A stretch of 54,410 nt of DNA from an uncultured Candidatus Poseidoniales archaeon (GTDB lineage Archaea > Thermoplasmatota > Poseidoniia > Poseidoniales > Thalassarchaeaceae): NCBI GenBank assembly GCA_902593945.1, contig CACJKA010000008.1, positions 1-54,410 on the forward strand. The letters are read 5' to 3'. Position numbers and translations under genes: made by a program. The notes beneath the pieces are model-generated. The model saw nothing but the letters and a program-made list of their open reading frames with translations, searched no databases and was not told the DNA's origin. Numbering within the stretch: position 1 is the stretch's first letter; every line of letters starts with the position of its first letter. Positions 46,830 through 51,093 of the stretch are shown here, piece after piece.

Positions 46830-48301
<1,472 letters not shown>

Positions 48302-48729: not shown

Positions 48730-50652
48730 TTAATCTGCGCCAAAGAACTCTCTAAGAACAGGGTGCATTTCCATCGCTTGTTCTTTCTGAATTTGCTCAT
48801 AAGTTCTTAGAATAATACCCACTGCTAGTAGTAAACCAGTTCCTGTAGCATTCCCTACAGTACCTAGTAGATCTGCTCCAGCAGCAAGTAAACCTACGAA
48901 TGCCCCAGAGAAAAGAGTTACAGGTGGGATATATCTTTCTAAGATACGTTCCAATACGACTGGGTTCTTTCTAAATCCAGGTATCTGCATCCCAGTTCTC
49001 TCAATCTGCTTAGCAACATCTTTGGCACCCATATTTGTTGTTTCAATCCAGAACTTAGCGAATACTGTAGAACCAGCTGTCATTACGAAAACGTATACTA
49101 CTACGTGTACCATTAGTTGCCCCAAACTATGCCCATATGCATCTCCAGTCTGATTCAATAATGGCAAGAACCAATCTCCAACTCCGTTAACCATAGAGGA
49201 ATACCAAGCGAAACCATCGGACGGAGTTGTTGCACCAACTTCGTACGAACCAAACCAGTGGGCTCTACTCCAAGCTCCGTTACGTCCAAGAATAGGTACT
49301 GTTGACAATACAGGATGGCTCCAGAATAATAATGTGAACATATTGATATTAGCTAGCAAAGCAGCCATTAGAATTACTGGAATGTTACTCGCGTAAACAA
49401 GACGTATTGGATATTGCCCACGATGACCGCGAACTTTTCCATGAGTTAATGGCAATTCTAACTTACTTGATTCGGCGTAAGCAACTACCAAGAAAACTAT
49501 GATCGAAGAAACTAGAGCCGCTATGGGGTTTGCATGATTCAATAAAATTAATTCGAAACCATTTTCTGAAACTAATTGAGAATTCGTAGCCGTCCGTAAG
49601 GTATAGAAAATCATAGGCAACGTACCTGAGGGAGGGTTCTGGAATGACAAAGGAGAGCCTGCAGTTACCGGCAATGGCGACAATGTTCCTACGAAAGTTG
49701 ATTGAGCAACCCCGGCAGCAATAAACAAAGAAATACCACTGCCAATACCCCACTTACTGACTAACTCATCGAGTAAGAATACAAGATATGAGCCCACGAA
49801 TAATTGTGCTACAATTATCGTGTTGGCCCAACCAATACCAAAGTCTAGAATTAAAGTCTCTGAAGGATCTAAGAATCCATAAACTTGAGGTATTGACTCA
49901 ATCGGAATCATAATCAGAACCAATAATTTTTGAATACCTTGATACAACTGCTTGTCGCTGGAGTTCTGTAAATCTAGCTGTATGATCTTCGCTCCTGCGA
50001 AAAGTTGCATTATAATTGAACCAGTAACAATGGGTCCAATTCCCAGATGCATGATTGAACCGGATGCACCGGCCATAATTGCTCTAAATGATGAGAATAT
50101 ATCTAATGTTGAATCTGAAAGGCCGTAGATCATTACATTTGTCATCATGAAGTAAATGATTAGCACAAGAGTGGTGGTCCATAATTTCTGATTGAAACGT
50201 ACGTGACCTTCTGGTTTTGTGATACTAGGATAAACATCTACGAACCTACTGAGACCATACAAACGACTGCTTTCTGAACCGGAGTACAAAAGACAAACTA
50301 AAGACATAGCAATAGCAACACCAAGAAGTGCTACCCCTACTAATAGGAATCCTACTGCTGCCTTATCTACCCAGCCCCAATATGCTAGTCCTATTACAGA
50401 AGTTAGCCATATACCAGGTTTGAGTATACGTCCTAAATACGGAATATCTCTGATATTATCAGGTAAATCAGTCATTGCACACCACATGATATATGCAACA
50501 TATGGTATCGAAACTAAGAACATTCGAAGTGCTCTCATTTGTTCATCAGGATTTCCATCCAGAAGATCATCGCGGAGCCAGTAGAACAACATACCCCAAT
50601 ATATTGCACCCATTATTGCTGTTCCAATAACATTAGGTTTTCTGTCTACCAT
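48730..50652 (-). CDS. secY: Preprotein translocase subunit SecY with extra N-terminal membrane domain
   Basis: Central channel of the Sec translocon. The SecY core starts at about residue 137 with RFVDVYPSITKPEGHVRFNQ and continues through ten helices, including GIGPIVTGSIIMQLFAG and GIGSGISLFIAAGV. Upstream lie about 135 residues with four more hydrophobic helices (roughly 10-28, 46-62, 83-97, 101-127 counted from the GTG at 50661), absent from SecY proteins as I know them. The ATG at 50652 is preferred since AAGGAGTG precedes it; the GTG at 50661 would add MNL. It follows uL15 by 24 bases at the end of the spc operon. Confidence 0.93.
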   Translation of the reverse strand: MVDRKPNVIGTAIMGAIYWGMLFYWLRDDLLDGNPDEQMRALRMFLVSIPYVAYIMWCAMTDLPDNIRDIPYLGRILKPGIWLTSVIGLAYWGWVDKAAVGFLLVGVALLGVAIAMSLVCLLYSGSESSRLYGLSRFVDVYPSITKPEGHVRFNQKLWTTTLVLIIYFMMTNVMIYGLSDSTLDIFSSFRAIMAGASGSIMHLGIGPIVTGSIIMQLFAGAKIIQLDLQNSSDKQLYQGIQKLLVLIMIPIESIPQVYGFLDPSETLILDFGIGWANTIIVAQLFVGSYLVFLLDELVSKWGIGSGISLFIAAGVAQSTFVGTLSPLPVTAGSPLSFQNPPSGTLPMIFYTLRTATNSQLVSENGFELILLNHANPIAALVSSIIVFLVVAYAESSKLELPLTHGKVRGHRGQYPIRLVYASNIPVILMAALLANINMFTLLFWSHPVLSTVPILGRNGAWSRAHWFGSYEVGATTPSDGFAWYSSMVNGVGDWFLPLLNQTGDAYGHSLGQLMVHVVVYVFVMTAGSTVFAKFWIETTNMGAKDVAKQIERTGMQIPGFRKNPVVLERILERYIPPVTLFSGAFVGLLAAGADLLGTVGNATGTGLLLAVGIILRTYEQIQKEQAMEMHPVLREFFGAD

Positions 50653-50676
50653 TAGATTCACTCCTTGATTCTAAGA

Positions 50677-51093
50677 TTATTCTTCTTCCCATTCATCGTC
50701 GTTGTCAGCAAGGTTTACTGAACCACCCGCAGCTTCAACTTTCTTTATAGCAAGAGAACTTGCTTCATTAACTGTAATACTGAGTGCCTTGTTTATCTTA
50801 CCTTTACCGAGTAACTTATCGAAACCAAGATCTGTTAAATTAATACTCTTACCATCTGCCATTTCTTCAACTTGCTGAAGATTAATTGAAACATTTACAA
50901 CTCTTAAACTTGGGTCTCTATTGAATCCGTGCATACCCCAATGACCTGGCATATACTTAATTCGAGTCATAACACGATGTTTGTTAATTCCAGCATTACC
51001 GCGACCTCCACGCTTACCTGCGCCTCGACCTGCTTTCTTTCCACGACCATGATAGCGTGAGCGACCACGGAATTTATTTGTTCTAGATACCAT
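50677..51093 (-). CDS. rpl15: Large-subunit ribosomal protein uL15
   Basis: The N terminus is the glycine/arginine-rich tail of L15 (RGRSRYHGRGKKAGRGAG), followed by the archaeal segment KYMPGHWGMHGFNRD and a globular C-terminal domain (LLGKGKINKALSITV, AIKKVEAAGGSV). Length 138. The acidic end DNDDEWEEE is a little unusual. GAGGTGA overlapping the uL30 stop serves as ribosome-binding site. Confidence 0.96.
   Translation of the reverse strand: MVSRTNKFRGRSRYHGRGKKAGRGAGKRGGRGNAGINKHRVMTRIKYMPGHWGMHGFNRDPSLRVVNVSINLQQVEEMADGKSINLTDLGFDKLLGKGKINKALSITVNEASSLAIKKVEAAGGSVNLADNDDEWEEE

Follow-up and report, generated by a model that had tools for sequence, protein, structure and literature searches.

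Few membrane channels are conserved in every cell as SecY is, and its plan of ten helices is regarded as fixed. Among its partner subunits, E. coli SecE is an example with an extra N-terminal transmembrane (TM) hairpin. The Poseidoniales, whose SecY is the subject of this report, are very abundant and are the commonest archaea of the surface ocean. The gain of TM hairpins has been noted for some SecE and for bacterial YidC, and it has been proposed that SecY and YidC themselves arose, at their deep origin, by hairpin additions (PMC8675477). These hairpins of some SecE and of bacterial YidC are the nearest precedent for what is described here; in some bacterial SecE, too, a translocon subunit has gained a TM hairpin outside its essential core, although a different subunit is concerned and the likeness drawn is one of architecture.

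The closest described proteins are archaeal SecY/Sec61-alpha, of which the M. jannaschii (1RHZ) and P. furiosus (3MP7) proteins align over most of their length with residues 132-640 of the protein studied here. The plug, the ten TMs, and the C-terminal motif are common to both, and Poseidoniales also have SecE and Sec61-beta genes; unlike in known SecY structures, however, there are 131 residues ahead of the aligned region, and none of the 28 matched PDB sequences aligned with them. The secY of MGII has been described as highly conserved and located beside the ribosomal operon, in a passage that does not mention its N terminus (PMC6741140). In the open-access journal literature searched, we found no description of extra helices on archaeal SecY.

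The secY gene and its four-helix extension

The window, i.e., the whole stretch of 54,410 nt that was analysed, belongs, as a single contig, to a 65%-complete Poseidoniales genome of 1.2 Mb, and its relatives that carry names are Euryarchaeota MAGs, Ca. Poseidoniales, Poseidoniaceae, and Thalassarchaeaceae, including the MG-II chromosome CM001443. The secY gene occupies 48730-50652 on the minus strand (640 amino acids plus stop, with the ATG at 50652) and is single-copy, giving one match in this genome. Its identity rests on Pfam and NCBIfam matches. As had been claimed in a preliminary description of this DNA, the start is preceded by a good ribosome-binding site, AAGGAGT (50660-50666, minus strand), located 7 nt 5' of the ATG, and purine-rich ribosome-binding sites also precede the equivalent ATG in most of the relatives inspected. 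The context is that of a ribosomal-protein operon, secY following a uL15 (L15)-like open reading frame (50677-51093, minus strand) assigned from its translation by eye and from the usual archaeal gene order. Immediately 3' of secY lies a full-length archaeal 16S rRNA gene (46830-48301, minus strand).

By every curated test the protein is classed as SecY, and the novelty lies in the attached domain. The preliminary description placed the beginning of canonical SecY near residue 137, and curated profiles bear this out: the ordinary archaeal core, with ten TMs and plug, comprises residues 135-640 (48733-50250, minus strand) in profile and PDB sequence alignments. Pfam assigns Plug_translocon to residues 165-198 and SecY to residues 199-618, with scores of 227.6 bits for PF00344 (cut-off 32.2) and 42.2 for PF10559, and the NCBIfam archaeal SecY model NF006341 (337.8, cut-off 300) begins to match at residue 134, its profile position 7. 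SecY/Sec61-alpha is a family of ten helices only, and this protein departs from that description by four more at its N terminus; these are additions to the family core, and membership of the family is kept.

In an AlphaFold2 model of the extension alone, built from an alignment of 45 family sequences, residues 1-134 form four membrane helices (8-32, 35-60, 73-95, and 97-122), in agreement with the four hydrophobic segments first noticed there. All of the following features are on the minus strand. TM1 (residues 8-26, the model helix continuing to about 32) is encoded at 50575-50631 and TM2 (residues 35-60) at 50473-50550. The TM2-TM3 loop (residues 61-72; 50437-50472), predicted from its charge bias to be cytosolic, carries a conserved DLPE...P.xG motif, and P64, G74, and K78, in this loop and at the start of TM3, are invariant. 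TM3 (residues 73-95; 50368-50436) is weakly hydrophobic by Kyte-Doolittle analysis in the window's protein, yet it is a clear helix in the AlphaFold2 model from which its limits were taken. TM4 (residues 97-122; 50287-50364) has a glycine face (G101/G106/G111) and is followed by a cytosolic junction, YSGSESSRLYGL, and the SecY N-terminal peripheral helix (residues 123-140; 50233-50286), a stretch shared with a two-helix form of the extension (SYxGExSKLYGL) that is described below. Across Poseidoniales the invariant residues of the extension are Y18, W25, A41, P64, G74, K78, V105, G111, G125, and S129-R130-L131, together with Y132.

The model of the extension is a four-helix bundle with a mean pLDDT of 88.5 and a pTM of 0.80. 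In a full-length model the extension helices retained a pLDDT of about 70-89, while the mean over the SecY core was 48.6, because the submitted alignment was too uniform; that model thus does not place the bundle against the channel, and a Foldseek search with it matched Sec61 alone, via the core. Topology prediction, which the preliminary description had recommended, put the N terminus in the cytosol: net charges are +1.4 for the N terminus, -2.4 for loop 1, +0.7 for loop 2, and -1.3 for loop 3, and the positive-inside rule applied to them predicts an N-in protein. Because the added helices are even in number, the orientation of SecY itself would be unchanged. The bundle resembles nothing in the collections searched. 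Residues 1-134 matched no Pfam or NCBIfam family, profile searches of the PDB and Pfam returned only weak matches to unrelated membrane proteins, and Foldseek found nothing in the PDB with a matching fold, the best E value being 0.98 and no TM-score exceeding 0.31.

Conservation, selection, and origin

In 194 Poseidoniales genomes, the open frames that hold full-length SecY matches are about 612-721 codons long. A single frame is shorter (558 codons, in G121); it begins near a contig edge, and the extension of that genome was found separately. When the extension was the sole query, 224 of the 293 genomes of the class gave a match, all of the matches listed being from Poseidoniales; many of the genomes with no match are incomplete or are missing secY altogether. 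The preliminary description regarded the extension as a lineage-specific addition, a claim that would fail if homologs lacked it. We saw no complete SecY without the extension in the Poseidoniales genomes searched, and the four-helix form is universal among the complete proteins. One Poseidoniales secY copy (L257:3001-4920, PBWO01000011.1) has a single in-frame stop codon; since contig PBWO01000037.1 of the same assembly, RS814, carries another secY that is intact, the broken copy may be an error or a contaminant. The dN/dS of the extension is 0.03-0.19, mostly 0.03-0.07, as compared to about 0.002-0.012 for the SecY core. These values indicate that the extension is under purifying selection, while evolving roughly ten times faster than the core.

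SecY of bacteria and of other archaea begins near residue 134, and some internal ATG codons are present in TM4, so one could suppose that the start codon has been misassigned and that the upstream frame is separate or non-coding. The chance of this is next to negligible. The frame is unbroken in all complete copies and purifying selection is seen throughout it, findings on which we reject misassignment; moreover, the ribosome-binding site lies at the upstream ATG, and no conserved start codon was present at the core boundary among the relatives inspected.

The preliminary description also proposed aligning SecY of Poseidoniales, MGIII, and Thermoplasmata, and our survey of SecY N termini in the phylum Thermoplasmatota found three states: none of the extra helices (N termini of 10-20 residues), two (about 65-93 residues), and four (about 134 residues), the number added always being even. 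Many families of the phylum have SecY without extra helices. The two-helix form is found in f3, the other family of the same class (sister order) and, as the other order of that class, probably MGIII, and also in families f6, f11, f20, f24, f27, f33, f35, f43, f46, f47, and f52. Its sequences share the pattern M(AE)EEIPRN...[TM]..[TM]..SYxGExSKLYGL, and it resembles the four-helix form in its place, its junction, its predicted N-in orientation, and its TM hairpin, but it has two helices in about 65-93 amino acids as compared to four in 134 in Poseidoniales. The four-helix state is real, but it is no isolated oddity; with two-helix relatives in the sister order and in other Thermoplasmatota, it is the end of a series. 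Another SecY of the phylum (L099, G214:C75) has a 696-codon frame in which the PF00344 match is split in two places, which looks like a large insertion inside the channel domain. Scans of viral contigs found no SecY.

In a tree of the SecY core, the four-helix proteins are monophyletic with a support of 100; their stem is long (0.95), and they are placed beside two-helix f3 with a support of only 80. The distribution of the two-helix form needs seven changes on this tree, and a single clade of all carriers of two or four helices was rejected (AU p 7e-8), so that the distribution calls for several gains, several losses, or transfer. The common junction favours a common source of the hairpins. 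By hhalign, whose pairwise values are not calibrated like those of database searches, TM3-TM4 plus junction matched the two-helix hairpin with a probability of 93.5, which fell to 15-38 without the junction, the motif of which thus gives most of the signal; TM1-TM2, which would be homologous to the hairpin had they arisen by its duplication, resembled it weakly (39-46). Because it is TM3-TM4 with the junction that matches the two-helix hairpin, TM1-TM2 is probably the later addition. With relatives that carry two extra helices or none, the SecY channel seems to have been enlarged stepwise.

Such a history may be neutral. SecY could have acquired one hairpin by fusion early in Thermoplasmatota and another in Poseidoniales, both harmless and hard to remove, as would be consistent with the roughly tenfold faster evolution of the extension, with the presence of two helices or none in related lineages, and with the hairpin gains in some SecE and bacterial YidC (PMC8675477). 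This is the main rival of the accessory role that we propose below, but we consider it less likely, as the extension is kept in every complete Poseidoniales SecY seen, its dN/dS is well below 1, and it has invariant residues in loop 2 and TM4.

Position, partners, and possible role

We propose, at about even confidence, that the extension is a structural or docking accessory, a scaffold or lipid contact, that lies at the edge of SecY and not at the lateral gate. The bundle would fold autonomously and be fused to the ten-helix channel via the cytosolic N-terminal helix of SecY. In the mammalian ribosome-Sec61 complex, the loop right after that helix touches uL24 and helix 24 of the 28S rRNA; this loop is also conserved in archaeal SecY (PMC11186639). 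Because the tether runs through the N-terminal helix, ahead of the ribosome-contacting loop, the bundle probably sits next to TM1, within SecY's N-terminal half, and we infer that it would pack near TM1 and the Sec61-beta/hinge side. The core itself offers a weak hint of contact away from the lateral gate: at 19 core sites Poseidoniales have a fixed residue that differs from that of other sequences, and of these sites none is in TM2, TM3, TM7, or TM8 and several are in the N-terminal helix, TM1, TM5, TM6, TM10, and loop 6/7 (e.g., W159T at the start of TM1, which is W in 98% of other sequences and T in Poseidoniales), a pattern that comes from a small sample, was noticed after the fact, and uses helix limits taken from the poor full-length model. 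So placed, the bundle may stabilise the translocon and its lipid surroundings, offer a docking surface for another factor, or both, and would not itself be a protein-conducting groove. Against this accessory reading, so fast-evolving an extension could be mostly dispensable.

Among the roles suggested in the preliminary description was that of an insertase helper, which at the lateral gate would be a fused domain that receives or chaperones nascent membrane helices, as YidC, PAT, or TMCO1 assemblies do next to Sec61. Its attachment near the ribosome-contacting N-terminal loop (PMC11186639) is suggestive, as is the finding of no clear SecDF across the phylum, and members of the Oxa1/YidC/TMCO1 superfamily are likewise membrane domains of few helices that work beside SecY. 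However, the cytosolic helical hairpin of that superfamily is missing from the AlphaFold2 model of the extension, the extension gave no PF01956 match, and TM1, TM2, and TM4 are essentially without charged residues and have no charged or strongly polar groove, so an Oxa1-type groove is unlikely. The gate helices carry no lineage-specific substitutions, and an Oxa1-family insertase (PF01956) is already present in 59 of 60 genomes. We therefore regard the insertase-helper reading as quite improbable. The lack of a clear SecDF holds whatever the state of SecY; the PF02355 matches, open frames of about 740-1290 codons scattered over lineages, included one that was read and is RND/MMPL-like (L312), and a link between the extension and SecDF loss was rejected because there was no correlation with these scattered matches.

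The Oxa1/TMCO1-family insertase of Poseidoniales has at its end a basic tail and a zinc-ribbon-like CPxC...CxVCxxEW (L306, G000:C19:3732-4142, minus strand, and L307-L310; open frames of about 316-360 codons). A sister-order copy (L311, 227) lacks the zinc-ribbon tail. Whereas this gene adjoins secY in many Thermoplasmatota outside Poseidoniales, the two are not neighbours within Poseidoniales. Under the accessory reading, this insertase, which also bears a Poseidoniales tail, would be the first candidate docking partner. A bolder version makes the bundle a novel, lineage-specific translocon subunit built into SecY, added hairpin by hairpin and working with the Oxa1-family insertase, which would have gained its tail independently, in a fused archaeal counterpart of the eukaryotic multipass translocon; it is conceivable, and we give it little weight.

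An extension of this kind could alternatively take the place of an existing subunit, and SecG/SecE-like support was among the roles first suggested for it. Sec61-beta is divergent in Poseidoniia, its membrane helix being much changed and its cytosolic motif kept; its matches have E values of 1e-3 to 1e-7 in the class as compared to 1e-8 to 1e-17 elsewhere in the phylum, and in five genomes, including the window's own 65%-complete one, it was below detection (E<=0.001). Nevertheless, both Poseidoniales families have Sec61-beta, which where readable keeps one TM and the cytosolic motif AGLIRYFDEE, it is normal in two-helix lineages outside the class, and SecE is encoded by the window's own genome. 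Nor does the extension look like Sec61-beta/SecG, as it gave no PF03911 match and does not have the AGLxRYF motif plus one TM that identifies that subunit. The idea that a tethered hairpin has replaced Sec61-beta/SecG or SecE is thus largely refuted and very improbable, and we rejected it because both genes persist; with SecE and Sec61-beta still encoded, the extension adds to the SecYE-beta complex. In the sister order f3 (L167-L171, L177), the usual single TM of Sec61-beta is followed by another hydrophobic segment.

The extension points to a translocon component that is missing from curated families and from the literature found. Annotation and the modelling of archaeal translocons are both affected, as profile searches begin only at residue 134, so that the domain goes without a name. 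To the hairpin additions from which SecY and YidC are proposed to have originated (PMC8675477), the states of zero, two, and four helices in Thermoplasmatota add a comparable series of hairpin additions to SecY.
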